DNA of 64,000 bases from NCBI GenBank assembly GCA_024401275.1, contig JAKSLJ010000002.1, positions 113,132-177,131 of the forward strand, given 5' to 3'. The position numbers were made by a program, and so were the translations under genes. Below are positions 1,781 through 58,210 of the stretch, piece after piece. The DNA comes from Bacteroidaceae bacterium (GTDB lineage Bacteria > Bacteroidota > Bacteroidia > Bacteroidales > Bacteroidaceae). Position 1 is the stretch's first letter; every line of letters begins with the position of its first letter. The notes under the pieces were generated by a model. That model was not told the origin of the DNA. It searched no databases and saw only the letters and a program-made list of their open reading frames with translations.

Positions 1781-3292
<1,512 letters not shown>

Positions 3293-3302
3293 TCCGCTTT
3301 TT

Positions 3303-3545
3303 ATGCTTACATTAAGAATAATATCACCAGAAAAGATACTCTTTGAAGGCGGCGCTTCGCTTGTCAAGGTGCCGGGAGTAAGTGGTGAATTCGAGATTCT
3401 CGACAACCATGCTCCTATCATTTCCGCTCTGCAGGCAGGCACTGTGGAAGTGGAAAGCAACGGCGAGCGTAATTCGTTCAGCATCATGGGTGGCTTTGTG
3501 GAAGTACATAAGAACATGGTGGATCTCTGTGTAGAGATGGAATAA
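3303..3545 (+). CDS. atpC: F1Fo ATP synthase subunit epsilon (short form)
   Basis: Epsilon subunit of the central stalk, coupling rotation to catalysis. Only 80 residues: it has the N-terminal beta-sandwich (LTLRIISPEKILFEGGASLV, with VPGVSGEFEILDNHAPII) but lacks the C-terminal helical hairpin that inhibits ATP hydrolysis in E. coli. This short form is common in Bacteroidetes. The start at 3303 is chosen because homology begins at MLTLRIISPEK; the frame stays open upstream to 3186, but that part overlaps atpD. Autoinhibition by this subunit is therefore not expected. Confidence 0.95.
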   Translation: MLTLRIISPEKILFEGGASLVKVPGVSGEFEILDNHAPIISALQAGTVEVESNGERNSFSIMGGFVEVHKNMVDLCVEME

Positions 3546-3555
3546 GCAGGAAAAG

Positions 3556-3882
3556 ATGAACATTGCTGTAATCATTATCACGGTGCTTATGCATCTGATA
3601 CTTACGGGCATGGCATTCTTTATTCTGAAGACCGTCATGAAGTCGAACCCTTCGGCTGTGTTGAAGTCCATCTTCGCCATCATGGGTGTACGCTTCGTTT
3701 TCCCGCTTGCGTTCTATGCAGCATGCCTCTTCGGATGGAAAGACTACGGTTGGGAATTGGGAGAAATAAAGGTTTTCACAATCTTCTACCTCATCCTTTA
3801 CCTTCTTTTCCTTGCTATTGACACCGTGTACTTCTATTTTACTCTTAAGAATTCAGACAAAAACAATAAAGAAGAAAAATGA
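3556..3882 (+). CDS. Small membrane protein in the AtpI position
   Basis: 108 residues with about three hydrophobic segments (starting IAVIIITVLMHLILTGMAFF, then FAIMGVRFVFPLAFYAACLF and VFTIFYLILYLLFLAI) and a charged tail (NSDKNNKEEK). It occupies the place of AtpI, the helper of c-ring assembly, just before atpB, and overlaps atpB by four bases (ATGA). The overlap suggests translational coupling. Sequence similarity to classical AtpI is not evident to me, so the role is inferred from position only. Confidence 0.85.
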   Translation: MNIAVIIITVLMHLILTGMAFFILKTVMKSNPSAVLKSIFAIMGVRFVFPLAFYAACLFGWKDYGWELGEIKVFTIFYLILYLLFLAIDTVYFYFTLKNSDKNNKEEK

Positions 3883-15582: not shown

Positions 15583-16599
15583 ATGAACAAGAAGAACGTA
15601 ATAAAAACATTATTCCTTGTGGTGACTCTTTCTGCCATTTGCTTGCGAATGTGCAATGGTGGTGGAAAGATGACTTATTTGTCGAATCAAGGAAGTGTTT
15701 TTGGTACTACATATAGCATAACTTACGAGTGGACAGAAGATTTGTCTGCCGAGATTCAGCAGACTATGAAGGATGTAGATTTCTCGCTTTCTCCTTTTAA
15801 TGATTCTTCCGTCATTACTCAGATTAACAACAATAAGGAAATTGCGCTTGACAAACACTTTGTGAAGGTTTTCGAGACAGCCATGAATGTTTCCGAAGAC
15901 ACAGACGGCGCGTTTGATATAACCGTAGCTCCTTTGGTTAATGCTTGGGGCTTTGGTTTCAAGACAAAGCAAATGCCAGGACAGGAACAGGTAGATAGCC
16001 TTCTTCAGCTTGTAGGTTACAAGAAGGTGAAGATGGAAAACGGCAAGGTGGTCAAGGAGAATCCTAACACTATGCTTGACTGTTCTGCTATAGCAAAAGG
16101 TTATGGCGTAGATGCTGTAGCTGATATGTTGACAGAAAAAGGCGTGAAGAATTTCATGGTTGAGATAGGAGGCGAAGTTGTAACTAAAGGCTTAAACTCA
16201 AGGAACTCGGCATGGAAAATTGGTATCGTAGAACCAACCGACGATTCTCTCAGCATCGGAAATGAGGTAAAAGAGGTTCTTGAGGTTCAGGACATGGCTA
16301 TGGCAACAAGCGGAAACTACCGTAAGTTCTATGTAAAAGATGGTAAGAAATACGCTCACACCATAGATCCAAAATCAGGTTATCCTGTTCAGCACAACAT
16401 TCTTTCTGCTACAGTTCTCGGACCTACTTGTACCATCTGCGATGCTTATGCGACCTCGTTCATGGTTGTAGGCTTGGAGGAAGCAAAGAAAGTTCTTGAC
16501 CGTCATCCGGAACTTATGGCTTACCTAATATATAATAATGACAAAGGCGAAAATAAGGTATGGTATTCGCCAAAGCTAAAGAAGCTTCTCGGCAAATAA
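15583..16599 (+). CDS. apbE: FAD:protein FMN transferase (ApbE)
   Basis: Attaches FMN covalently to threonine or serine of exported flavoproteins such as Nqr/Rnf subunits. 338 residues, N-terminal hydrophobic export segment (IKTLFLVVTLSAICL). Family motifs visible: DVDFSLSPFNDSS, DCSAIAKGYGVDAVA, GGEV, HTIDPKSGYPV and DAYATSFMVVGLEEA (metal/FAD-binding region). Starts 5 bases after the DUF6048 gene, so in the same transcript. Exported placement agrees with the periplasmic role of ApbE. Confidence 0.93.
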   Translation: MNKKNVIKTLFLVVTLSAICLRMCNGGGKMTYLSNQGSVFGTTYSITYEWTEDLSAEIQQTMKDVDFSLSPFNDSSVITQINNNKEIALDKHFVKVFETAMNVSEDTDGAFDITVAPLVNAWGFGFKTKQMPGQEQVDSLLQLVGYKKVKMENGKVVKENPNTMLDCSAIAKGYGVDAVADMLTEKGVKNFMVEIGGEVVTKGLNSRNSAWKIGIVEPTDDSLSIGNEVKEVLEVQDMAMATSGNYRKFYVKDGKKYAHTIDPKSGYPVQHNILSATVLGPTCTICDAYATSFMVVGLEEAKKVLDRHPELMAYLIYNNDKGENKVWYSPKLKKLLGK

Positions 16600-16666
16600 A
16601 AGCCCCATAGCGCCCAGTGCTTAAAATTCCCCTCGAGTCCGAAGCGTAAAATAGATCCTCCCTCGA

Positions 16667-16695
16667 GCCCCTGTGCCGGAAGCGTCAGCTTCTGG
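16667..16695 (+). repeat. Dispersed palindromic element, intergenic copy
   Basis: GCCCCTGTG then CCGGAAGC-GTCA-GCTTCTGG, a hairpin with 8-base arms (one G/T pair). The same sequence occurs inside two genes at 25966-25994 and 39741-39769. A partial second copy (CCTCGAG...CCGAAGCGT, 16631-16646) lies just upstream and shares the CCTCGAG flank at 16661-16667. Confidence 0.8.
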
Positions 16696-16724: not shown

Positions 16725-18830
16725 ATGAGTAATCCTTTTTTCAAGAAATTCAATACTCCCCACGAAACATATCCTTTCAACGAGATAAAGTTCGAACATT
16801 ACGAAGAGGCTTTCATGGAAGGAATGCGCCGCGAAAAAGAGCGCATGGAGAGAATAATAAATAATCCGGAAACACCAACTTTCTGGAACACAATTGTTAT
16901 TGTGGAGGAAGAGGAAGACGAATACTATGATCTTCTTGATAATGTTGAAACGGTCTTCGGCAATCTGATGAGTGCCGAGACAAACGACGAAATGGAAGAA
17001 CTTGCGGAAAAACTTCAGCCGCTTCTCACACAACATTCAAACGACATCTCGCTCAATCCGAAACTCTTTGAACGAATCAAATACATCTACCACAACCACG
17101 AGCCCCTTACTGACGAGGAAGAGCGTCTTCTCAAGGACACATACGAAGGATTTGTTCGTAGTGGTGCTCTTCTTGATGAAGCTGGAAAAGATAAGCTCCG
17201 CGCTCTTACGGAAGAAGCTGGTCTTCTAGGCTTGAAGTTCTCAGAGAATCTACGCAAGGAGAAGAAGGCTTTCGTCCTTCATATTACAGACGAGAAAGAC
17301 CTTGCCGGCTTGAAGGAACACGACATCGAGATGGCTAAGGCAACGGCAAAGGAGAAGAAACTCGATGGTTGGGTGTTCACGCTAGACGGTCCTTCTTACG
17401 GTCCTTTCATGTCTCATGCCGACAACCGAGAGCTTCGTAAGCAGATGTACATGGCTTACAATACTCTCTGCATCAAGGACAACGAATACAACAACCTTGA
17501 GATATGCAAGCGCATCGTGAACATCCGCCTCGAACTTGCCAATCTTCTTGGCTATAAGTCATACGCAGATTATGTCATGGTTCATCGTATGGCAGGCACT
17601 ACAAAGAAGGTAAACGAATTCCTCAAGACTCTCAAAAACGCTTATAAGAGTGCTGGATTTGCTGACGCGAAGGAAATACGCGAATATGCTCGCAAGCGCA
17701 ACAAAGACCGCAAGTTCAAGCTTGAGCCTTGGGATTTCAGCTATTATTCTCATCATCTTCAGAAGGAAAAGTACAACATAGAGTCTGACATGTTCCGACC
17801 TTACTTGAAACTTGAGAATGTTATTGACGGCGTTTTCGGTTTGGCAAATCGTCTTTACGGCATCACTTTCAAGGAGAATCCTGATATTCAGGTTTATCAT
17901 CCCGATGTGAAAGCTTACGACGTGATAGACAAAGACGGCAGTTTCCTTGCTGTTTTCTATGCCGACTTCTTCCCACGCGACGGCAAGCAAGGTGGCGCTT
18001 GGATGACTGAATACAACTGCCAATGGATAAGTCATAAGGGCGTTAACCATCGTCCACATGTTTCCGTTGTCATGAACTTCACAAAACCAACGGAAGACAA
18101 ACCTTCGCTCCTTACACTTGGCGAGGTAGAAACCTTCCTTCATGAGTTTGGTCATTCGCTTCACGGCATGTTCGCCAACACTCGTTTCGGCGCTATGTCC
18201 GGCACAAGTGTTTATTGGGATTTTGTGGAACTCCCATCGCAAATTATGGAGAACTACACAGCAAACCGCAAGTTCCTTAACACGTTTGCTTTCCACTATA
18301 AGACCGGAAAAACAGTTCCGGCGACACTTCTCAATCGCCTGAAGAAAACAAAGCATTACCTTGCTGCCTACAGCTGTATGCGTCAGGTTTCTTTCGGACT
18401 TCTCGACATGGCTTTCCATTCTATAAAGAAGCCGTTCGACAAGGAGATAATGCCTTTTGAACATGATGCTTGGAAGAGTGCCTTGATCCTTCCGCAGGTT
18501 CCTGGTACTTGTATGACATCTCAGTTCTCGCACATCATGGCTGGCGGTTATTCCGCAGGATACTACAGCTACAAGTGGGCGGAAGTGCTTGAGGCAGATG
18601 CGTTTAGCGTGTTCAAGGAGAAGGGAATCTTCAATACAGAAGTGGCACAATCCTTCCGCGACAACATTCTTTCTAAAGGTGGCACGAAAGATCCGATGGA
18701 ACTTTATATTGCTTTCCGTGGAAAAGAGCCAACCATAGATGCTCTCCTGAAGCGCAACGGCATTAAGCCTATAAAGAAAGCAAATAAGCCGCTAAAGAAA
18801 ACCAACAAGACAACTAAGAAAGCAAAGTAA
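16725..18830 (+). CDS. M3 family zinc metallopeptidase (Dcp/oligopeptidase A type)
   Basis: Cytoplasmic thimet-type peptidase, 701 residues, degrading short peptides. Zinc motif HEFGHSLHGMF (HExxH) with the downstream glutamate expected in the SGTSVYWDFVELPSQ segment. No signal peptide. Typical C-terminal M3 motifs ILPQVPGTCMTSQFSHIMAG and YSYKWAEVLEADAF. Dcp and OpdA cannot be separated with confidence by eye. Lysine-rich tail after residue 675. Its stop codon is part of an imperfect tandem repeat. Confidence 0.92.
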   Translation: MSNPFFKKFNTPHETYPFNEIKFEHYEEAFMEGMRREKERMERIINNPETPTFWNTIVIVEEEEDEYYDLLDNVETVFGNLMSAETNDEMEELAEKLQPLLTQHSNDISLNPKLFERIKYIYHNHEPLTDEEERLLKDTYEGFVRSGALLDEAGKDKLRALTEEAGLLGLKFSENLRKEKKAFVLHITDEKDLAGLKEHDIEMAKATAKEKKLDGWVFTLDGPSYGPFMSHADNRELRKQMYMAYNTLCIKDNEYNNLEICKRIVNIRLELANLLGYKSYADYVMVHRMAGTTKKVNEFLKTLKNAYKSAGFADAKEIREYARKRNKDRKFKLEPWDFSYYSHHLQKEKYNIESDMFRPYLKLENVIDGVFGLANRLYGITFKENPDIQVYHPDVKAYDVIDKDGSFLAVFYADFFPRDGKQGGAWMTEYNCQWISHKGVNHRPHVSVVMNFTKPTEDKPSLLTLGEVETFLHEFGHSLHGMFANTRFGAMSGTSVYWDFVELPSQIMENYTANRKFLNTFAFHYKTGKTVPATLLNRLKKTKHYLAAYSCMRQVSFGLLDMAFHSIKKPFDKEIMPFEHDAWKSALILPQVPGTCMTSQFSHIMAGGYSAGYYSYKWAEVLEADAFSVFKEKGIFNTEVAQSFRDNILSKGGTKDPMELYIAFRGKEPTIDALLKRNGIKPIKKANKPLKKTNKTTKKAK

Positions 18831-25077: not shown

Positions 25078-26634
25078 ATGTTGAAAATTGTTCGCCGTAC
25101 GCTTGCCGCCCTTGTTGGTTTGGCCATGCTACTGATGTTTCTTGACTTTACTGGCACTTTCCATGCCTGGTTTGCGTGGCTTGCCAAGATTCAGCTTCTT
25201 CCTGCCATTCTTGCCGTAAACATCGGCGTGCTTGTGACACTTGTTGTCTTGACTTTTGTCTTTGGAAGAATCTATTGCTCCGTTATTTGTCCGCTAGGCA
25301 TCATGCAGGACTTCATAGCGCGTCTTGGTCGCATTCGTCGCAAGAATCCTTATTCATATTCCAAGCCTAAGAACTGGCTTCGCTATGCCTTTCTTGTGCT
25401 GATGGTCATAGCTTTAGTGGCATCCGTATCTATAATAGTAGAAGTTCTTGCACCTTATAGCACTTTCGGTCGTATAGTAGCAACACTTTTCCAGCCGCTT
25501 TACATTCTGGCAAATAATGTGCTTGCCTCTATTTCTGAAAGTGTTGACAGCTATGCATTCTACAAGAAGGAACTCTGGATAGAGTCGGGCATTTTCCTCG
25601 CAGTAACTGCTGTCCATTTCCTTATTATTGCGGTTCTTGCATGGCGAAATGGTAGAACATACTGCAATACCATTTGTCCTGTCGGAACTCTTCTCGGCTT
25701 CATTTCTCGCTTCTCTCTCTTGAGAATAAAGATAGACCAGACAAAATGCCGTAAGTGTGGCAAGTGTGCAAAGAATTGTAAGGCTGCTTGTATCGACTCC
25801 AAGGGCATGACTGTTGATTACAGCCGCTGTGTGGCTTGCGGAAATTGCCTTGAGAACTGCTCATTCGGAGCCCTCTCTTATGGTTTTAAGAAAACTGTCG
25901 TTTCTAATGTTTCTGCAGATAATGAACCTATTTCTGCTGACAACGCCCCTATGTCTACCGATAACGCTCCTGTGTCTGAAGCGTCAGCTTCTGAAGAAAC
26001 TATCGACAAGAGCAAGCGCGCTTTCCTTCTCTCCGCGGCTATGGCTACAACTGCCGCAGCTTTTGCTGAGGATAAGATAAAGCTCGACGGTGGACTCGCG
26101 AATATAGAAGGCAAACAATCGCCAAAGCGCAAGACTCCTATCACGCCTCCAGGTTCGCTTTCTGCGCAGAATCTTGCCAAGAACTGTACAGCCTGTCAGC
26201 TATGTATAAGCGAATGTCCAAATAATGTTCTTCGCCCATCTACAGCCCTTGACAGTTTCATGCAGCCGGTTGTTTCATACGACCGTGGCTATTGCCGCCT
26301 TGAGTGTAACCGTTGTTCAAGCGTGTGTCCTACATCTGCTATTCGTCCTATTGATAAAGAAGAGCGTACAGCAATTCAAGTTGGTCATGCTGTCCTTATC
26401 AAGAAGAACTGTATTTCTGCTACAGGCGAAGCTTCTTGTGGAAACTGTGCCCGCCATTGTCCTGTTCAGGCTATAGAGATGGTGCCTACGAATCCTGATG
26501 ACAACGAGTCGCCAAAGATTCCGGCTATCGACGAGATCAAGTGTATCGGCTGTGGTGCTTGCGAGAATCTCTGTCCGGTACGACCTTTCTCTGCTATTTA
26601 TGTAGAAGGCCACGAGCGCCACAAGGAAATTTAA
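25078..26634 (+). CDS. Membrane polyferredoxin (NapH/NosR-like, multiple 4Fe-4S)
   Basis: 518-residue integral membrane Fe-S protein, probably an electron carrier across or along the inner membrane. Membrane part 1-215 with two NapH/NosR-type motifs YCSVICP (C67, C71) and YCNTICP (C196, C200). Two 4Fe-4S motifs follow (C224-C234 and C251-C261). A Ser/Asp/Pro/Ala linker (about 275-310) with repeats SADNEP, SADNAP, STDNAP is followed by a Tat-signal-like segment SKRAFLLSAAMATTAAAF (312-329). Then come four further cysteine groups (C370-C380, C406-C417, C445-C461, C489-C499). A palindromic element encodes APVSEASASEE in the linker. Neighbours tatAC and a Tat-exported Fe-S reductase suggest a shared redox pathway. 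Partner enzymes are unknown. Confidence 0.88.
   Translation: MLKIVRRTLAALVGLAMLLMFLDFTGTFHAWFAWLAKIQLLPAILAVNIGVLVTLVVLTFVFGRIYCSVICPLGIMQDFIARLGRIRRKNPYSYSKPKNWLRYAFLVLMVIALVASVSIIVEVLAPYSTFGRIVATLFQPLYILANNVLASISESVDSYAFYKKELWIESGIFLAVTAVHFLIIAVLAWRNGRTYCNTICPVGTLLGFISRFSLLRIKIDQTKCRKCGKCAKNCKAACIDSKGMTVDYSRCVACGNCLENCSFGALSYGFKKTVVSNVSADNEPISADNAPMSTDNAPVSEASASEETIDKSKRAFLLSAAMATTAAAFAEDKIKLDGGLANIEGKQSPKRKTPITPPGSLSAQNLAKNCTACQLCISECPNNVLRPSTALDSFMQPVVSYDRGYCRLECNRCSSVCPTSAIRPIDKEERTAIQVGHAVLIKKNCISATGEASCGNCARHCPVQAIEMVPTNPDDNESPKIPAIDEIKCIGCGACENLCPVRPFSAIYVEGHERHKEI
25966..25994 (+). repeat. Dispersed palindromic element inside the polyferredoxin gene
   Basis: GCTCCTGTG then TCTGAAGC-GTCA-GCTTCTGA. 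Read as Ala-Pro-Val-Ser-Glu-Ala-Ser-Ala-Ser in the polyferredoxin linker. Same element as 16667-16695 and 39741-39769. Confidence 0.8.
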
Positions 26635-38212: not shown

Positions 38213-40243
38213 TCAATACTCCAAGATAAGGCTCTGGCGTGGCTTGAGTTTGAAATCTTCGGAGATGTTGTACTTGCGACCAGTCGTAACGTCCTTGGCA
38301 ATTGTTGCTGCCGGTACTGCTTCCTGATAGCGCTTTGCCTGGAATGTTGCTTCGGAATTAGTGCCGTTAAGGACAACGAGTACATTCTTGCCTTGGTAAG
38401 AGCGGTTGATGACGTAAACTCCGTCAAGCGGACACCATTGTGTTTGTTCGCCCTTGATGATAACCTCGTTGTTCTGTCGCCAGTGGAGCAGTTTTGATGT
38501 CCAGCGGAGCATCTGCTTTTCTGCCTGCGTCATGCCCTCGCCAGTGAAGGCATTCTTTTTGTCGCCTTCCCATCCGCCAGGGAAATCGCAACGGACATAG
38601 CCGTCAGTTATTCGCTTTGTTCCGTTCATAAGAATCTCCGTTCCATAATAGAGCTGTGGAATACGCTTTATGGTGAGAAGCACGGAGAGAGCTTGCTTCA
38701 AGGCGAGAGTGTCTTTCTTGCTTTCGCCAAGGAAACGGTCAGTGTCGTGATTGTCAAGGAAAGCCATCACAGAGGCAGGGTTAGGGTAGAGGTAGTCATA
38801 GACAAGATTGTTATAGATCTTGTTGAAACCGTTCCACCAAGCGTCTGTCTCCTCAAACTTTGTGGCAGCTCCAATCTTCTCGTAGAAAGCAAAATCCATT
38901 ACTGTAGGAAGGTTGGAGTTGGTAATATTAGAGGATGAAGAAGCAAAGTCTTTCTGCCAAGCTGCTGTGTAAGCTGGCTCTGTAACCCATGTCTCGCCAA
39001 CGACGTTGTAGTTAGGATATTCTGCGAGCAGCTCCTTCATCCATTGTGCCATACCTTCCTTGAAAGCGTATGGGTAAGTGTCCATGCGGATGCCATCTAT
39101 TCCGACAGTTTCTATCCACCAGAAAGAGTTCTGTATAAGATAGCGCATGACGTGAGGATTACGCTGGTTGAGGTCTGGCATTGAAGGCACAAACCAACCT
39201 TCGGTGGTTTCTTTAAGGTCTATCTTTGAGGCATACGGATCAAGGACAGGAGTGAGCTTGTAGTTCGTCTGGACATACTCTTCGTTTGTCGGAGGAGTTG
39301 CCATGACGGATTGACCTTCTGCGTTCTGGCTTTGGTTTTGAGTGTTATCCTTATTCTTTGCCTGAGCCTCAGGAGAGAGCCATTCCGGTGTGTTGAACCA
39401 ATCCTTTGAAGGCATGTCGGCTACCCAAGGATGGTCGAAACCACAATGGTTGAAGATCATGTCCATAACAATCTTCAAGCCCTTCTTGTGAGCTTCGTCA
39501 GTAAGCTGACGGTACTGCTCGTTTGTGCCGAAGAGAGGTTCTACGCGGTAGTAGTCGGTTGTTGCGTAGCCGTGGTATGTACTCTGATCGCCGGCATCAG
39601 GAGAGTTGTTCTCAAGGACAGGAGTAAACCATAGGGCAGTTACGCCAAGTTCTGTAAAGTAGTCAAGATGCTGGCGAATGCCTTCAAGGTTTCCGCCGTG
39701 ACGGAGGGAAGGCTTCTCGCGGTTTATTATGCGGAGCTTATCCGAAGCTGACGCTCCGGACACAGGGGCTTTCTTGGCGGATTTCGCCTTTGCTGTAGCG
39801 GCGTTTGCCATTGTAGCGGCGTTTTGAGGAGCAGAGGCAAAGCGGTCGGGCATAAGCATGTATAGAACATCGGCGTTTGTGAAGCCCTTGCGCTTTGAGC
39901 CAGCCATCTCGCGGCTCTTTAGCTCGTAGGTTTGCTTGATGGTTTTCTTGCCAAGCTTGAAGGATAGAGTCATCTCGCCTGCCTGTGCATTTGCAATATC
40001 CAGATAGACAAGGAGATAGTTTGGCGATTCAAGACGAACGACTTCGTCAATCTTCACGCCTGCATAGTCGGTACTAACCTCGGCTTCACGAATGCCCTTA
40101 CTATATACCATGAGCTGGAGCTTTGGATTCTTCATTCCTACATACCAGTTTGTCGGATCTATTCGTAGGGGTTGCTTCGGAGCGGCGTTGGTTGTTAGTA
40201 ACATACTGTTGAGGGCTAAAAGGAGGAAAAGGATTTTTTTCAT
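38213..40243 (-). CDS. Secreted GH13 alpha-amylase/neopullulanase (SusA-like)
   Basis: Starch-cleaving retaining amylase, 676 residues, signal peptide ending near TTNA. N-terminal Ig-like domain, then the GH13 barrel: GIRMDTYPY (nucleophile Asp), NVVGETWV (acid/base Glu), FLDNHDTDRF (third Asp). About 60 residues longer than Bacteroides SusA. Two low-complexity insertions explain much of this: residues about 137-170 (Ala/Lys-rich, with APVSGASASDK from the palindromic element) and about 292-320 (Asn/Gln-rich). Both fall in loops. Last gene of the starch cluster, 82 bases after pulA. Confidence 0.93.
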   Translation of the reverse strand: MKKILFLLLALNSMLLTTNAAPKQPLRIDPTNWYVGMKNPKLQLMVYSKGIREAEVSTDYAGVKIDEVVRLESPNYLLVYLDIANAQAGEMTLSFKLGKKTIKQTYELKSREMAGSKRKGFTNADVLYMLMPDRFASAPQNAATMANAATAKAKSAKKAPVSGASASDKLRIINREKPSLRHGGNLEGIRQHLDYFTELGVTALWFTPVLENNSPDAGDQSTYHGYATTDYYRVEPLFGTNEQYRQLTDEAHKKGLKIVMDMIFNHCGFDHPWVADMPSKDWFNTPEWLSPEAQAKNKDNTQNQSQNAEGQSVMATPPTNEEYVQTNYKLTPVLDPYASKIDLKETTEGWFVPSMPDLNQRNPHVMRYLIQNSFWWIETVGIDGIRMDTYPYAFKEGMAQWMKELLAEYPNYNVVGETWVTEPAYTAAWQKDFASSSSNITNSNLPTVMDFAFYEKIGAATKFEETDAWWNGFNKIYNNLVYDYLYPNPASVMAFLDNHDTDRFLGESKKDTLALKQALSVLLTIKRIPQLYYGTEILMNGTKRITDGYVRCDFPGGWEGDKKNAFTGEGMTQAEKQMLRWTSKLLHWRQNNEVIIKGEQTQWCPLDGVYVINRSYQGKNVLVVLNGTNSEATFQAKRYQEAVPAATIAKDVTTGRKYNISEDFKLKPRQSLILEY
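39741..39769 (-). repeat. Dispersed palindromic element inside the SusA-like gene
   Basis: On the minus strand GCCCCTGTG then TCCGGAGC-GTCA-GCTTCGGA. It encodes Ala-Pro-Val-Ser-Gly-Ala-Ser-Ala-Ser from residue 159, in the same frame and orientation as the copy in the polyferredoxin gene. Confidence 0.8.
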
Positions 40244-40261
40244 TGTTTATATTTTTTAAGA

Positions 40262-40325
40262 CCAACGGAAAAGCGTTGGGAACGGTGGCGGGATGCCCAA
40301 CGGCAAAACCGTTGGGAACGGTGGC
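40262..40325. repeat. Two palindromic repeats between pulA and the amylase gene
   Basis: CCAACG-GAAAAG-CGTTGG (40262-40279) and CCCAACGG-CAAAA-CCGTTGGG (40296-40316), each followed by AACGGTGGC. The second directly abuts the pulA stop codon. A third, diverged copy is at 57544-57572. Confidence 0.8.
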
Positions 40326-42233
40326 TTAGTTGTGGAGGATTACGGCAGATTGTGGCGAAACGGTTACGGTAGTGTCGTGAACGGTTTGGATTCCGTGTTC
40401 ATCTACGATTCCGTCTTTGCAGACAACTGTGTAGGAAGAAAGTGGCGTGCTTAATTCTACTTCCTTCTTTGTGCCGTTGAGAATGACAATTATGTCCTTC
40501 CATTCATCACCTCCGGCATTATCCTTCAGACGGAAGGCAACAACGCCTTCGCTCGCAGGAAGGAACTCCAAATGCTTGCGTACGAGGTCGGCATCACCAA
40601 GTCGGAAAGCAGGATGGTTTGTGCGAAGAGCGATGAGTCGGCGGTAATAATCGAATACCTGAGGATATTTCTTGAGGTTGTTCCAGTCAAGGTGGTTCAC
40701 TTCATCTGGTGAGTTGTAGCTGTTATGAACTCCCTTCTTGTCGCGCATCATCTCTTCACCTGCAAGCATGAAAGGTACGCCTTGGGAAGTAAGCACGGCT
40801 GTCTGTGCAAGAAGGTCAAGACGGATAAGCTCTTCCTCTGTAATATTAGGAATGCTTGTACGAAGTCGGTCGGTAAGGCACATGTCGTCGTGGCAGCTAA
40901 CGTATGCAATCATCTGCGAAGGTTGCTTTGCCCAGAATGCCTGAGTATAGTTTACTTTCTTAACATCAACCTGCGGATGCTCTACTGCACCTGCTATACC
41001 GAACTTTATGCTCTCTTCATTACCCGGAAGACCTCCGAGGAAAGCCGTTTTCTTATCATCGGAGAAAGGGCCGCGGAGAGCATCACGCATCTCGTCAGAG
41101 AAAGCCGCAATGCCGTCAAGTTTGTGGGTGTTTACCTTCATAGCAAGCTGAGATTCTGGTAATTGAGGACTTTCTGCCGCCCAACCTTCTCCGTAGATAA
41201 AGGCTGAAGGGTTAATCTCACGCACTACTTTTGCTATGAGATTCATGGTCTCAATATCATGAATACCCATGAGATCGACGCGGAAACCGTCTATGTGATA
41301 TTCCTTCGCCCAATACTTGAACGACTCAATCATATACTGTCGCATGTAAGGCTTTTCGGAAGCTGTTTCGTTTCCGCAGCCGCTGCCGTTGGCAAGTGAG
41401 CCGTCTTTCTTCAGACGATAGAAATAATCAGGATAAGTGCGCTGGAAATTGCTGTTCTCAACATCCATAGTATGGTTGAGCACAACGTCCATGATAACGC
41501 GGATTCCGGCATCGTGAAGCGCAAGAACCATTTCCTTGAACTCACGGATTCTCGTTTCCGGCTTATAAGGGTCGGTAGAGTAAGAACCTTCCGGCACATT
41601 GTAGTTCAGAGGGTCGTAACCCCAATTGAACTGTGGAACCTCAAGGTGCGACTCATCAACGGAAGCAAAGTCGAACGAAGGCTGAAAGTGAACAGCATTG
41701 ACGCCAAGTTGACGAAGATGGTCAATCGCCTTGAAATGAGTGAGAGCCAGGTACTTTCCGCCATCTTTTATTCCAGCAGATTCGTCTATGGAATAGTCGC
41801 GATGGTGCATTTCGTAGATTACGAGGTCGCAAGGATTCTTCGTATAAACGAAATCATCCTTGTCCCAACCGATAGGATTTGTCTTTGCCAAATCAATAAT
41901 TGCAGCACGCTTTCCGTTGATGCCGACAGCTTTGGCAAACACGCCAGGACATTCGCCCTTACCGACATCAAAGGTGTAGAACAATCCCTTGAGATTGCCC
42001 TTGACAAGAGCTGCGAAAGAATCTTTCCCCGCACGCTTCATCTTGACCGTTTTGATAGCTTTGCCACCCTCGCCGTCTTTATAGATGCGAAGCTTAGGCT
42101 TACTGCCGTCAGGAGCAAGGAGAGAGAAGGAAGTTGATTTTTCGCTATAGGAAAATTCCTGGAAATCTTGTGCACTTGCAGATACTATAGTCATGGAGAA
42201 TAGTATTGAAAGAATGAATGTTTTGGTATTCAT
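40326..42233 (-). CDS. pulA: Type I pullulanase, GH13
   Basis: Debranching enzyme cutting alpha-1,6 bonds in pullulan and starch. 635 residues with signal peptide (SMTIVSASAQ). Carries the type I pullulanase motif FNWGYDPLNYN; catalytic barrel motifs IDGFRVDLMG, FIYGEGWAA and SCHDDMCLTDRL. Secreted, so it acts on oligosaccharides in the periplasm or at the surface. Placed between GH97 and SusA-like genes; a plus-strand gene interrupts the cluster upstream. Confidence 0.93.
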   Translation of the reverse strand: MNTKTFILSILFSMTIVSASAQDFQEFSYSEKSTSFSLLAPDGSKPKLRIYKDGEGGKAIKTVKMKRAGKDSFAALVKGNLKGLFYTFDVGKGECPGVFAKAVGINGKRAAIIDLAKTNPIGWDKDDFVYTKNPCDLVIYEMHHRDYSIDESAGIKDGGKYLALTHFKAIDHLRQLGVNAVHFQPSFDFASVDESHLEVPQFNWGYDPLNYNVPEGSYSTDPYKPETRIREFKEMVLALHDAGIRVIMDVVLNHTMDVENSNFQRTYPDYFYRLKKDGSLANGSGCGNETASEKPYMRQYMIESFKYWAKEYHIDGFRVDLMGIHDIETMNLIAKVVREINPSAFIYGEGWAAESPQLPESQLAMKVNTHKLDGIAAFSDEMRDALRGPFSDDKKTAFLGGLPGNEESIKFGIAGAVEHPQVDVKKVNYTQAFWAKQPSQMIAYVSCHDDMCLTDRLRTSIPNITEEELIRLDLLAQTAVLTSQGVPFMLAGEEMMRDKKGVHNSYNSPDEVNHLDWNNLKKYPQVFDYYRRLIALRTNHPAFRLGDADLVRKHLEFLPASEGVVAFRLKDNAGGDEWKDIIVILNGTKKEVELSTPLSSYTVVCKDGIVDEHGIQTVHDTTVTVSPQSAVILHN

Positions 42234-47650: not shown

Positions 47651-48976
47651 TTATTTCTTTTCTTTAATTGCGAAAACAGCTACTGCTCCTAATACAAGGA
47701 GTACGCCAGCCACAATCATCATGTTTGGTTGTGAAGAGCCAACGAGTGAGAGAATGCCGCCACCACAAACGGCAGCCACGATTTGAGGCAAGCATATTGT
47801 GCCGTTGAAGAGTCCAAGGTATTGTCCCATGTGACCATAACCCTGAAGAGCGTTTGTAACCATTGTGAAAGGCATTGCGAGCATAGCAGCCCATCCGCAA
47901 CCAATCATTACGAAAGGCAGGAACAGAACGTATTTCGCAACTTCTACGCCGCCGCAGAGTTCTGCTGAGAACACTGGTATAAGAGCGAAGCCGAGACCTC
48001 CGATGATAAGACTTAGTGAATAGCCAACCTTTGTGTTCTTGATGTTCGGAAGTATAGCAGCCCAAAGAACAGCGCCAATAGCTTGTACGGCGTAGAGAAC
48101 TCCTACCCAGTTTCCGGCTACCTGGTAAGCCTCAGAGGAAGCATCAGTCGTGCCCCAGACTGTCTCGGACACAGCTCCGTTGACATAGCTCCACATATAC
48201 ATGAACGCTGCCCAGCAGAAGAACTGCACAAGACCTACCTGCCAGAAAGCCTTTGGAGCATTCTTTAGAAGAGTGAATGTGTTTGCGCTGTCTTCCTTTG
48301 CGTCTGCAACCGGATTGTACTGAGCATATTCTTCCGGATTCCATTCCTTCACCTTTGCTGTTGTATAGAAAACGCAAAGAATCAGTATTGCTGCTCCGAT
48401 ATAGAACGACCAGATAACAGAATCAGGTACAACTCCAGGAGCGGCTATATTGCTGATACCGAGCGCTGTAAAGAGGAACGGGAAGATGTAACCGGCTACA
48501 GAACCAGCATTGCAGAGGAACGACTGTATGGAGTAAGCTTTCTTCTTCTGCTCTTCGTTTACCATATCGCCCACAAGCATCTTGAAAGGCTGCATCGCCA
48601 TATTTATAGATGTGTCGAGAAGCATGAGCATGATAAGGCCGAAAGCCATTACTGCACTTAGAGCCAAGCCTAAAGAACCAGCATTAGGAAGCAGACACAT
48701 AACGGCAACGGCTACAGTGGCGCCGATAAACAGATATGGAATACGGCGACCGAACTTACACCAAGTCTTGTCGGAAGCAGCTCCGACAATAGGCTGAACG
48801 ATTATGCCCATGAGCGGTGGCAATATCCAGAAATAGCTCAGGTTATGCGGATCTGCACCGAGAGTTGCAAATATTCTTGAGATGTTGGCGCTTTGTAGGG
48901 CGTAAGCTATCTGAACTCCGAAGAATCCGAAACTCAGATTCCATAATTTCCAGAATGATAGGTTTGGCTTTTGCAT
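47651..48976 (-). CDS. MFS sugar transporter, SLC45-like
   Basis: 441 residues, about twelve membrane helices; probable maltose/maltodextrin importer across the inner membrane. Signature stretches: FFGVQIAYALQSANISRIFA and GAASDKTWCKFGRRIPY (between helices 2 and 3). The start at 48976 is chosen because homology begins MQKPNLSFWKLWN; upstream in-frame codons to 49021 overlap a palindrome. It follows lacI-type regulator and precedes malQ. Substrate inferred from neighbours. Confidence 0.9.
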   Translation of the reverse strand: MQKPNLSFWKLWNLSFGFFGVQIAYALQSANISRIFATLGADPHNLSYFWILPPLMGIIVQPIVGAASDKTWCKFGRRIPYLFIGATVAVAVMCLLPNAGSLGLALSAVMAFGLIMLMLLDTSINMAMQPFKMLVGDMVNEEQKKKAYSIQSFLCNAGSVAGYIFPFLFTALGISNIAAPGVVPDSVIWSFYIGAAILILCVFYTTAKVKEWNPEEYAQYNPVADAKEDSANTFTLLKNAPKAFWQVGLVQFFCWAAFMYMWSYVNGAVSETVWGTTDASSEAYQVAGNWVGVLYAVQAIGAVLWAAILPNIKNTKVGYSLSLIIGGLGFALIPVFSAELCGGVEVAKYVLFLPFVMIGCGWAAMLAMPFTMVTNALQGYGHMGQYLGLFNGTICLPQIVAAVCGGGILSLVGSSQPNMMIVAGVLLVLGAVAVFAIKEKK

Positions 48977-48998
48977 ATTATGAGTTTTTTTGTATAGA

Positions 48999-49018
48999 TT
49001 CAAAGTTGATGCTTTGAA
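48999..49018 (-). promoter_or_regulatory. Palindrome upstream of the MFS gene: candidate operator
   Basis: TTCAAAG-TTGATG-CTTTGAA, seven-base perfect arms, 23 bases upstream of the transporter start. A possible site for the adjacent LacI-type repressor, but it does not match the palindrome upstream of GH97. Confidence 0.35.
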
Positions 49019-49053
49019 CACGGGGGGTATGAGGTTTCTAAATGCTCGTGAAT

Positions 49054-50100
49054 TTAGTAGCTATTCTCGGGCAGACGTTTTGTTGTACCGCGAATGATGA
49101 GGCGAGTTTTTACGATACGCTTATCTATTTTGTTTTTTGGAGTTTCGCCTTTAATGTGTTTTATCAACACGTCAACAGCTTCACGCCCGATTTTTGTTCC
49201 TCGCTGCTCAACAGTTGTCAGCATCGGTTCGCAAGAGATGGCTCGTATTCCGTTTGAAAAACCGCAAATCTGTATGTCGGTTGGAATTCTAAAGCCCATT
49301 CTTTTAGCTGAGTATAGAATGCCCAGAGCCGTATCATCATTAATGGCGAAGAAACCGTCAGGACGGTTGTCTTTGCTAAGGATTTCAGGTGTAATGTCTT
49401 CAGCATCAGCACGATTGTCGCAAACTATTTCTATTTCCGGATCAACGGGAAGATGATGCTTAAGTAGGGCGTCGCGATAGCCATTGTAGCGGTTTTTCGT
49501 TATCTCAATCTTCATCGGTGTTCGATAGAATGCAATTCGTTTGCAACCGCATTTTATGAGATACTCTACAGCCGAGAAAGCACCTTGGTAGTCATCTACC
49601 ACAACTCTGCTTGTGTTCAAGCCTGTGCAGATTCGATCGTAGAAAACGAGCGGGATATTAGAGTCTATAAGTTTCTGGAAATGACTGTATTCCACAGTGT
49701 CCTTTGCCTGTGAGACAATCACGCCGCACACTCTAGTCTTACGAAAGGCTTCGCAAATCTCCACCTCGCGTTCAAACATCTCGTCGCTCTGTGCCGCAAT
49801 AATCATGTAGTCATGTTTGCTTGCTTCTTCCTCCATGCCGGAAAGTACCGTAGAGAAATAGTAGTGAGCAATTTGCGGAATAATTACACCTATGATGTTC
49901 AGTTGCTGTCCTTTCGAACTGTTTCTTAGGTTTGAGGCAAGAAGATTTGGCGTGAAGTTATGCTCTTCGGCGTATTTTTGAATCTTTTCACGCACATCCT
50001 TGCTGATTAACTTGCTGTTTTTCAATGAACGAGAGACAGTAGCAACGGAAACATTCAGTTCCCGTGCAATATCCTTCATTGTTATCGTTTTCTCGTTCAT
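49054..50100 (-). CDS. LacI family transcriptional regulator
   Basis: 348 residues. Helix-turn-helix at residues 8-27 (MKDIARELNVSVATVSRSLK), hinge, and periplasmic-binding-protein-like sensor domain (IIGVIIPQIAHYYFSTVLSG, GFFAINDDTALGILYSAKRM). Likely controls the downstream maltodextrin genes, with a maltose-type sugar as ligand (inference from position). The MFS gene begins 77 bases after its stop. Confidence 0.93.
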   Translation of the reverse strand: MNEKTITMKDIARELNVSVATVSRSLKNSKLISKDVREKIQKYAEEHNFTPNLLASNLRNSSKGQQLNIIGVIIPQIAHYYFSTVLSGMEEEASKHDYMIIAAQSDEMFEREVEICEAFRKTRVCGVIVSQAKDTVEYSHFQKLIDSNIPLVFYDRICTGLNTSRVVVDDYQGAFSAVEYLIKCGCKRIAFYRTPMKIEITKNRYNGYRDALLKHHLPVDPEIEIVCDNRADAEDITPEILSKDNRPDGFFAINDDTALGILYSAKRMGFRIPTDIQICGFSNGIRAISCEPMLTTVEQRGTKIGREAVDVLIKHIKGETPKNKIDKRIVKTRLIIRGTTKRLPENSY

Positions 50101-55997: not shown

Positions 55998-57476
55998 TTA
56001 GAGGATAGACTCTACAGTAGCGAGCATGCCCTTTGACTGGATGTCGTCGAGGAAGCCCTTGATCATTGCAGTGAGACCTGGAATCTCGTTGAGGTCGCTC
56101 TTCCATACTTCTGTCATAGCGAGAACGCCTTCTGCAACCTTCTGAGTGTCGCCTGTTGCCCAAAGGTCTGTGAGCTTCTGCATGATTGCTGGGTCGTCGT
56201 TTGGAGTGATAGGAGCACCGTCCTCACGAACACCACCCTTGTAGTATGTGATGATGGCAGCAAGACCGAGAACAAGACCCTTAGGGAGTTCGCCCTTGCG
56301 CTCAAGGTAGATCTTGAGACCTGGGAGGTCGCGTGTCTCATACTTAGGGAATGAGTTAAGCATGATAGATGTTACCTGGTGGTCAACGAATGGGTTGTTG
56401 AAGCGCTCGAGTACGTCAGCACCGAACTTCTCAAGTTCTTCCATTGGGAGGTTGAGAGTCTGCATGAGCTCTTCGAACTGCACCTTGTGGATGTACTTGC
56501 CGAGGATAGGGTGGTTGCAAGCGTCGCGAACGATGTTCACGCCTGAGAGATAAGTAACAGGAGAGAGAACAGTGTGAGGGCCGTTGAGGAGAGTAACCTT
56601 ACGCTCGTGGTATGGCTTCTCTGACTCAGCGATGAGTACGTGGAGACCAGCCTTCTCTGCAGGGAATTCCTTGCGGAGGTCTTCGATGGACATGTTCTCT
56701 GGCTTCTCGATAACCCAGAGGTGGAAGATTTCTGCCTGAACAACGAGGTTGTCGTTGTAAGAGATCTTCTCGCGGATTTCGTTGATCTCGTGGCGTGGGA
56801 AACCAGGAACGATACGGTCAACGAGAGTAGCACATACGTAGTTGTACTTCTCAACCCACTCCTTGAAGCCTTCGTAGTCAGCACCGAAGTCGTCCTTCCA
56901 GAGCTCGATGTACTGAGCGATGCACTCCTTGAGCTTGTGGCCGTTGAGGAAGATGAGTTCGCAAGGCATGATGATAAGACCCTTCTCAGGATCGCCAGCG
57001 AATGTCTGGTAACGACGATAGAGGAACTGAACGAGCTTGCCTGGGTAAGAAGAAGCTGGAGCGTCAGAAAGCTTGCAAGCAGGATCGAAAGCGATACCAG
57101 CCTCAGTAGTGTTAGAGATTACGAAGCGGATTTCTGGCTGATCAGCGAGAGCCATGTAAGCCCAGTTCTGTGAGTATGGGTTGATAGCGCGAGAGATAAC
57201 GTCGATACGCTCGAGAGTGTTCACTGGTTCGCCGTTCTCACGACCCTGAAGGTTTACGTGGTAGAGACAGTCCTGACCGTTGAGCCAGTCAACCATACCG
57301 CGCTCGATAGGCTGAACAACTACAACAGAGCCGTTGAAGTCTGTCTTCTGGTCCATGTTCCATACAATCCAATCTACGAATGCGCGGAGGAAGTTACCCT
57401 CGCCAAACTGAACGATTTTCTCAGGCATCACGCTCTTAGGAGCGGTGCGCTTGTTGAGTTCTTGAAGTTTTGCCAT
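55998..57476 (-). CDS. uxaB: Tagaturonate reductase (altronate oxidoreductase)
   Basis: NAD-dependent enzyme of galacturonate breakdown, tagaturonate to altronate. 492 residues, mannitol-dehydrogenase superfamily. N-terminal IVQFGEGNFLRAFVDW (nucleotide-binding region), KVTLLNGPHTVLSPV (catalytic lysine/asparagine region). Fits pectin use together with the CE12 esterase. Upstream leader carries AAAAACC-type heptads. Confidence 0.93.
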   Translation of the reverse strand: MAKLQELNKRTAPKSVMPEKIVQFGEGNFLRAFVDWIVWNMDQKTDFNGSVVVVQPIERGMVDWLNGQDCLYHVNLQGRENGEPVNTLERIDVISRAINPYSQNWAYMALADQPEIRFVISNTTEAGIAFDPACKLSDAPASSYPGKLVQFLYRRYQTFAGDPEKGLIIMPCELIFLNGHKLKECIAQYIELWKDDFGADYEGFKEWVEKYNYVCATLVDRIVPGFPRHEINEIREKISYNDNLVVQAEIFHLWVIEKPENMSIEDLRKEFPAEKAGLHVLIAESEKPYHERKVTLLNGPHTVLSPVTYLSGVNIVRDACNHPILGKYIHKVQFEELMQTLNLPMEELEKFGADVLERFNNPFVDHQVTSIMLNSFPKYETRDLPGLKIYLERKGELPKGLVLGLAAIITYYKGGVREDGAPITPNDDPAIMQKLTDLWATGDTQKVAEGVLAMTEVWKSDLNEIPGLTAMIKGFLDDIQSKGMLATVESIL

Positions 57477-57543: not shown

Positions 57544-57625
57544 CCCAACGGAAAACCGCTGGGCACGGGGACTGTTCACCGCAAGTCAATTAAAAGTTCC
57601 CCTACGGGGGGGAGGGGGCTTTTAC
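57544..57625. repeat. Two palindromic repeats between rlmH and uxaB
   Basis: CCCAACGG-AAAA-CCGCTGGG (57544-57563), a diverged copy of the 40262-40325 family, then ACCGCAAGTCA (57578-57588) and CCCC-TACG-GGGG followed by GGAGGGGGCTTTT (57599-57622). Repeat families found separately elsewhere are joined here in one gap. Confidence 0.7.
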
Positions 57626-58092
57626 TCATGGTGGTACGGCTCTCCTTTAATTATAGTACAGGCGCGATAGAGCTGCTCGGCGAAGATGAGTCTGACCATC
57701 TGGTGGGAGAAAGTCATCTTTGAGAGTGAGATCTTTTCGTTAGCGCGGGCATAGACATCTTTCGAGAAACCGTAAGGTCCGCCGATGATGAACACCAGCC
57801 TCTTAGCCGTTTGCTGCTTCTTTTCTATCCATTGGGCATATTCCACGCTGCGGAACTCCTTTCCGTGTTCGTCTAGAAGAACAACGGTGTCGGATGTCTG
57901 AAGAAGCTTCAGTATGAGTTCGCCCTCCTTTTGCTTCTGCTGTTCCTCGGAAAGATTCTTCGAGTTCTTGAGGTCGGCAATGACCTGAATGTCGAACGGG
58001 ATGTAGTGGTTTATGCGCGAAACATAGTCTTCAATCGCAGCTTGATACATCTTATTGTCCGTCTTTCCTATGAGAATAAGGGTGGCTTTCAT
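57622..58092 (-). CDS. rlmH: 23S rRNA pseudouridine1915 N3-methyltransferase
   Basis: 156 residues (E. coli RlmH 155), SPOUT-knot methyltransferase. Typical start KATLILIGKTDNKMYQAAIE and SAM-binding VFIIGGPYGFSKDVYARANE, ending with FAEQLYRACTIIKGEPYHHE. The start at 58092 matches family length and lies just after a consensus promoter; a further upstream frame to 58134 overlaps the promoter. Confidence 0.95.
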   Translation of the reverse strand: MKATLILIGKTDNKMYQAAIEDYVSRINHYIPFDIQVIADLKNSKNLSEEQQKQKEGELILKLLQTSDTVVLLDEHGKEFRSVEYAQWIEKKQQTAKRLVFIIGGPYGFSKDVYARANEKISLSKMTFSHQMVRLIFAEQLYRACTIIKGEPYHHE

Positions 58093-58097
58093 AGCCG

Positions 58098-58129
58098 CAA
58101 AGTTACGATTAAAATTTCGATTTTGCAAA
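58098..58129 (-). promoter_or_regulatory. Promoter of rlmH, next to the start codon
   Basis: Minus strand TTTG (58126-58129), 20 bases, TAACTTTG (58098-58105). Only five bases to the ATG: transcription should start at or within a base or two of the start codon, giving a leaderless mRNA. Confidence 0.75.
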
Positions 58130-58210
58130 ATCAACTTTGCAAAAATTGACTCTAAATGATAAAAAAGTGATTTTTTGTCAATATATTAAACAGATGGCAT
58201 TACTATTTAT

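Follow-up and report, generated by a model that had tools for sequence, protein, structure and literature searches.

A short palindromic repeat that lies in frame in unrelated Prevotella genes and mostly points with transcription

A palindromic element of 29-30 nt occurs both between genes and in frame inside unrelated protein genes of an uncultured gut Prevotella and two relatives, and as a palindromic element inserting in frame it works like the Rickettsia palindromic elements (RPEs), a conclusion that is supported by the evidence laid out below. The best explanation, to which we give a probability of about three in four, is that it is a small non-autonomous palindromic repeat of Prevotella (the genus in the broad sense) that probably spreads as a hairpin and tends to point with transcription. 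The window, which is the whole 64-kb stretch of DNA that was analysed (C12:113132-177131), belongs to a genome of 3,201,998 bases in 71 contigs (G000). Two features go beyond the first-pass annotation of the window: the strong sense orientation of the copies, including those between genes, and the existence of stem variants that share one 9-base head.

A 28-base pattern covering the three copies that had been reported, with up to three mismatches allowed, gave three matches in the window, each with 0 mismatches, and a mean of 0.00 matches in 100 dinucleotide shuffles of the window. These copies, all of the GTG type, are exactly where the first-pass annotation had placed them. The copy at 16667..16695 (+) has an ApbE-family gene (15583-16599, +) on one side and a peptidase M3 gene (16725-18830, +) on the other, and is sense to both. 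The copy at 25966..25994 (+) lies in a polyferredoxin gene with Fer4 domains (25078..26634, +) and encodes APVSEASASE, while the copy at 39741..39769 (-) lies in the gene for a SusA-like GH13 amylase/cyclomaltodextrinase (38213..40243, -) and encodes APVSGASASD; as had been claimed, both are read in the same orientation and frame, namely sense and frame 0. Four more copies, all on the minus strand, had been missed. Two GTT-type units form a head-to-tail pair upstream of the amylase gene, the first of which (40296..40325, -) has a 5-base loop, directly follows a pullulanase-like gene (40326-42233) and is weak in covariance model R2 (E 0.087, with shifted ends), and the second of which (40261..40289, -) is matched by R2 with an E of 1.1e-5. 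A copy with a changed but mostly paired stem lies at 48999..49027 (-) between a LacI-type gene (49054-50100) and an MFS-type gene (47651-49021); the listed GTG start of the MFS-type ORF overlaps the element, and the longest-ORF caller takes a later ATG. The remaining copy, at 57544..57572 (-), has the stem CCCAGCGG/CCGTTGGG and the loop TTTT, was found by both the scan and R2, and is flanked by genes for a SPOUT methyltransferase (57622-58134) and a member of the mannitol dehydrogenase family (55998-57476). In total, pattern scans and R2 place seven copies in the window, of which the model scores one weakly. A scan match at 22111, with two head mismatches and six of eight pairs, was taken for chance. 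Just upstream of the 16667 copy (window 16600-16666), the sequence CCTCGAGTCCGAAGCG looks like part of another, decayed copy. Rfam models at their gathering score gave no match in the window.

The element consists of a 9-base head, GCC[CA]C-N-GT[GT], followed by an 8-bp stem with a loop of 4-5 bases, and the unit is conserved over 29-30 nt. The core GNAGCGTCAGCTTC is present at 14 places in G000 and a 29-nt pattern (up to three mismatches) at 24 places, and the reversed-pattern control gave 0 for each; the genome-wide counts, the other ground on which the proposal might have failed, thus lie far above the controls. The 24 copies depart from the head GCCCC-N-GTG by no more than one change (three have GTT), and their stem is 8 bp long; 17 of them have GTCA as the 4-base loop. 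The search pattern for this set required the inner five pairs, which are mostly GAAGC/GCTTC, and left the outer arm positions mostly free. The hairpin originally described, GAAGC-GTCA-GCTTC, is correct but too short, as three outer pairs extend it and vary in a paired fashion (CCC/GGG, TCC/GGA, TTC/GAA, CTT/AAG, CTCC/GGAG). Covariation of the outer stem in the 24 copies amounts to 17 double-changed cells against a shuffled mean of 3.7, a value reached in 0 of 500 shuffles; a 106-copy set is not used as proof of covariation because most of its copies were chosen on pairing. Among 46 intergenic copies chosen regardless of the outer pairs, these three pairs are Watson-Crick in 37, 44 and 40. A wider scan found the same head joined to other stems and loops, for example CCCAGCGG-TTTT-CCGTTGGG, and GTG or GTT stands at the foot of the hairpin in 125 of 128 classed copies.

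The search of the genome and its sisters with a covariance model of the hairpin, which had been suggested as a check, gave at least 83 copies in G000, at least 108 in G120 and at least 83 in G096 (R2, E<=0.01), these being lower bounds with 150 candidates scored per genome, so that each of the three carries roughly a hundred copies or more. A match to model R1 at E<1e-3 was found in 14 of 120 genomes of the genus, G000 included, and only G000, G120 and G096 had more than 50 R1 matches at E<=1 (about 55 candidates scored per genome). Elsewhere in the order, none of 148 further genomes matched R2 at E<=0.001, with filters by which weak matches are missed. In a scan of named genomes for the amylase gene, the best 80 loci were led by a horse-faeces metagenome-assembled genome (MAG) with 83% identity, and in these 80 loci (662 kb) R2 found one strong copy, in the same MAG, the next match having an E of 0.0036. 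The analysed stretches of G096 have a GC content of 56% compared with 47% in G000 and G120, and several G096 copies sit within runs of the heptamer CCCTCAA, in some cases in genes (L102-L114). The four copies listed for G061 are all on one 104-kb contig (C37), which suggests a recent transfer or a mis-binned contig. Contig C104 of G033 (L047) carries four tandem copies with a period of 42 nt.

Comparison with orthologues and sister species demonstrates that the copies are insertions and that the sites turn over. The first-pass annotation had held that its proposal would fail if distant orthologues carried the same peptide, but the peptide is absent from 79 of 81 aligned amylases, being present in the window protein and its sister-species orthologue only, and from 22 of 23 aligned polyferredoxins, in which the linker is variable and the window protein alone carries it. 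Residues 141-172 of the amylase, which hold the element, are unaligned in the best solved relative, 9dcq. A synteny alignment of the window with the sister contig C61 (G120) aligned five pieces. The 25966 copy is absent from the sister DNA, and so is the 16667 copy, where the stretch between two matches is 11 nt instead of 144 nt (about 130 bases shorter). The sister also lacks a G000 intergenic array of about 112 nt. Additional units are present in the sister: a single one of 37 nt, differing in its stem, at a separate site, and two of 36 nt within an NMN-transporter family gene. In a QueA-type gene the outer stem is CCC/GGG in one sister species and TCA/TGA in the other, and other sites are unchanged between the two. 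Because the difference between orthologous gaps often exceeds a single unit, base-exact insertions are few, and a target-site duplication was not established. Some genes contain partial tandem copies of the head. In some coding linkers one sister has the element and the other has different repeats, either heptamer runs or palindromes of the CCCCCACAGGGGG and CCCCTTGAGGGGGTTGGGG kinds (L240, on C71 of G000, opposite L082:19562; L098 at about 4917; L082 opposite L241:4958), and the same protein linkers seem to be used by several repeat families.

Frame-0 copies were found in 49 ORFs of the analysed stretches. The statement that the host proteins are unrelated holds well beyond the two window genes, as homology at 1e-10 among the 49 is limited to five G000-G120 pairs. 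Pfam was read for 24 of 51 hosts (these 49 and two with antisense copies), and the names include RlmN, a QueA-type enzyme, a pseudouridine synthase and an O-methyltransferase; DsbD-type and ComEC-type proteins, an outer-membrane efflux protein and a SusD-type protein; and GH10, GH31, GH43/GH28 and GH106 enzymes. In the two hosts that were examined closely, the element is in a loop or linker. The hairpin has left its mark on the peptides. A choice by sequence that put no constraint on the outer three pairs gave 54 coding frame-0 copies: 21 combine Pro at position 4 with Gly at position 10, 16 combine Ser with Asp/Glu, the mixed combinations number 1 and 2, and the remaining 14 carry different residues (Fisher p 4e-8). 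An earlier count (25, 2, 2, 15) included copies chosen partly on pairing, and the sequence-only repeat gave 21, 1, 2, 16. Base pairing of positions 10 and 29 of the element explains this covariation, for which there is no evident protein reason. In the coding GTG-type copies of G000 and G120, the third position of codon 2 is T in 20 of 23 and C in 0 of 23, compared with C in 17 of 34 intergenic copies; T.T at the pair that joins two third codon positions occurs in 10 of 23 coding versus 7 of 34 intergenic copies, and the hairpin is thus not strictly kept in coding copies of this type.

The orientation of the copies was determined for 128 copies in G000, G120 and G096 with a codon-usage gene caller, which replaced a crude longest-ORF caller; the script omitted matches near stretch ends, duplicates and those that combined an unlisted loop with fewer than 7 paired bases, and a scan match at L117:6084, with an unrelated stem, was dropped as chance before the count. 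It was determined that 125 of the 128 are sense to the containing or upstream gene. Within genes (65 copies), 59 are sense in frame 0, four, all in G096, remain in sense frames 1 or 2 under the codon-usage caller, and two are antisense in frame 0, in a CbiC fusion and in MurB, both confirmed as genes by Pfam. Between genes (63 copies), 57 are sense to both neighbours, five are sense to the upstream gene with a convergent neighbour and one is antisense. Co-directional gaps hold 57 sense copies to 1 antisense copy, and divergent gaps hold 0 of the 63. By length, co-directional gaps make up 65% of the gaps in the window, convergent gaps 21% and divergent gaps 15%. Each of the 82 copies of the GTG type is sense, and the three antisense copies are of the GTT type. 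Binomial tests gave p values of 1e-16 (coding orientation), 4e-16 (co-directional gaps), 9e-24 (frame) and 1e-4 (divergent gaps), which overestimate the significance, as copies common to the sisters are not independent. When copies were chosen by sequence only, 102 of 104 were sense. The 57 intergenic copies lie at a median of 30 nt from the upstream gene and 41 nt from the next gene, and the seven close pairs (within 100 nt) in the analysed stretches of the three genomes are all head to tail.

Other repeats in the same DNA served as controls. Palindromic repeat F2, found with a loose pattern at 19 places, is sense in 9 and antisense in 7 of 16 informative places (4 and 4 between co-directional genes; 5 and 3 inside genes, in two frames), the other three having a convergent or missing neighbour. 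Heptamer F5 is sense in 7 and antisense in 7 of 14 places, and heptamer F6 leans to sense (5 versus 1 in 6 places). A RAYT-type REP and F4 were each found at 3 places, all in convergent gaps; F3 (21 places) is nearly its own reverse complement and is uninformative, and none was found for F7. In 3-kb loci of other species that have few copies of the element, 13 of 23 copies are sense, 9 antisense and 1 unclear, with four of the 9 in one tandem array and one probably a chance match. Given this mixed orientation in few-copy species, the sense orientation is shown for the three rich genomes only.

Several known systems resemble the element. RPEs occur between genes and in frame in many unrelated protein genes (PMC2229807, PMC10969869, PMC3733652), and the likeness that had been drawn to them holds for the in-frame palindromic insertion, since 59 of the 128 copies are sense frame-0 coding and 63 are intergenic. 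It does not extend to membership of that family. RPEs are given as 105-146 bp (PMC2229807) or about 150 bp (PMC10969869), whereas the element is a unit of 29-30 nt, unlike the RPE-1 kind of about 100-150 bp with terminal inverted repeats; it has another head, is found in another phylum, in Prevotella instead of Rickettsia (Prevotella and 148 other genomes of the order were searched), and even between genes lies mostly on the sense strand. PMC3733652 classes the REP-sized RPE-4 and RPE-6 as REPs of the CGTC type; the CGTC tag that they carry is absent from the element. REPs of the GTAG kind are described in the same paper as hairpins of 20-40 bp with a short unpaired tag and a high copy number, located mostly downstream of genes and sometimes within them. 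The element is like them in hairpin size, in its tag at one end, in copy number and in location, but it lacks GTAG, no RAYT flanked by it was found, its pairs run head to tail and it is sense-oriented. For CGTC REPs, PMC3733652 gives an 8-bp stem in two families, a 4-base loop in one and occurrence in Bacteroidetes among other phyla, all of which match the element; the consensus of the 106 copies, however, lacks the terminal CGTC, the A/T first two stem pairs and the CCA tail. Inverted repeats are also kept inside functional protein genes of Nematomorpha mitochondria (PMC6649704), although these are much longer and perfect and do not form a dispersed family with one head. In-frame palindromic elements are known mainly from Rickettsia, and intragenic REPs from some other bacteria (PMC2229807, PMC3733652). 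Structured-RNA candidates near uvrC that are restricted to Prevotella, and palindromic candidates in Bacteroidetes, have been reported (PMC8040213), and no description of the element in Prevotella was found in the literature searched, mostly without subscription papers. The element works like RPEs and REPs, yet it fails their tag, RAYT or length tests, and its unexplained sense orientation could be a property that might set it beyond the known kinds.

Four other explanations of the family were weighed. A hairpin that is functional in mRNA (in stability, processing or translation coupling), selected in the sense orientation and spread secondarily, would account for the orientation between genes, the short gaps with their medians of 30 and 41 nt, the empty divergent gaps and the RNA energy model, which favours the sense strand by 2 kcal/mol while the DNA model hardly does. 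We consider it doubtful nevertheless, as 43 of the 100 classed copies of G000 and G120 are frame-0 coding, at varied positions along genes whose proteins are unrelated, the sites differ between sister species, and the element is missing from the majority of Prevotella, with matches in 14 of 120 genomes. Mobilisation in trans by a RAYT (a Y1 tyrosine transposase), as for a REP of the GTAG kind, is unlikely. The REP-like size, the short conserved tag at the foot of the hairpin and the position mostly downstream of genes all fit, and G000 has one good Y1_Tnp gene whose own flanking repeats open similarly, with GCCCCTAG before CCCAGGG. However, these flanking repeats are a different repeat, and the sole nearby copy of the element is inside a separate ORF; the tag is GTG or GTT and not GTAG; and the close pairs of the element run head to tail in 7 of 7 cases, while in many REP families such pairs are mostly opposed (PMC3733652). 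Y1_Tnp was searched in G000 and ten other genomes, with no match in G139. None of the 25 Y1 loci from G000 and nine other genomes (about 1.5 kb around the match) has copies on both sides, three having any match: L039 with one (the copy near the G000 gene), L042 with two on the same side and L129 with one. The richest genome, G120, yielded no more than partial Y1 matches (covering 39-120 and 39-87 of the 121 positions). A RAYT as the present carrier was rejected, as no scanned Y1 locus has the element on both sides. At L043:2727-3090 and ~3160-3615 (C21 of G000), a Y1 transposase gene with its own repeats, AGCCCCTAGCCCAGGGC...CCCTGGGT and CGCCCTGAAAGGGC, forms a RAYT/REP-like pair that is unrelated to the element save for a similar head.

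It is quite improbable that the family is a linker repeat at the protein level, spreading by recombination between coding copies with the intergenic copies as strays. The coding GTG-type copies of G000 and G120 are more uniform than the intergenic ones and partial tandem head copies exist inside genes, but about half of all copies (63 of 128) are intergenic with their outer pairs kept, and the end residues covary in the way that the hairpin requires. A family of intrinsic terminators would fit the intergenic copies that often stand a few bases to a few tens of bases from the end of the upstream gene; yet no T run follows the stem, the bases past position 30 being mixed in 57 GTG-type copies, a co-directional gene follows 57 of the 63 intergenic copies, and about half of the copies are inside genes, which leaves this explanation highly improbable.

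For the small palindromic repeat that we favour, the hairpin would be the unit recognised during spread, which points to spread as a folded single strand. Copies in other frames may have been purged by selection, because frame 0 yields a mild linker peptide, A-P/T-V-P/S-E-A-S-A-S-G/D. Purging at the peptide level alone fails to explain the sense orientation, since the antisense frame 0 is also open and mild and the orientation also holds between genes. The orientation would require that the element inserts into the displaced coding strand or that the mRNA hairpin is under selection; most likely, it is the coding (mRNA-like) strand whose hairpin is used in insertion or retained by selection. 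Energy models give the sense consensus -16.7 and the antisense -14.7 kcal/mol as RNA, and -10.1 and -9.8, hardly different, as DNA. The loop type, C-GNNA-G, is known to be very stable in single-stranded DNA, and this hint diverges from that of the RNA model, which favours the sense strand where the DNA strands are near equal. No mobilising enzyme was found in the analysis. A possible route, which we hold only tentatively, is a mobile DNA hairpin coupled to transcription, in which the single strand, once folded, would insert where transcription has displaced the coding strand; nearly every copy in the rich genomes would then be sense, both between and inside genes. To our knowledge, no bacterial repeat has been described as oriented by transcription in this way.

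The element accounts for peptides that recur in unrelated Prevotella proteins, such as APVSEASASD, and that might otherwise pass for a protein motif. If insertion is indeed coupled to transcription, host proteins would gain linkers of 10-12 residues in one frame. The sense orientation is a new clue to the mechanism. With a 29-base in-frame palindrome in gut Prevotella, and with sister species that differ in their copies, the spread of such elements and their tolerance by proteins become testable in free-living bacteria.
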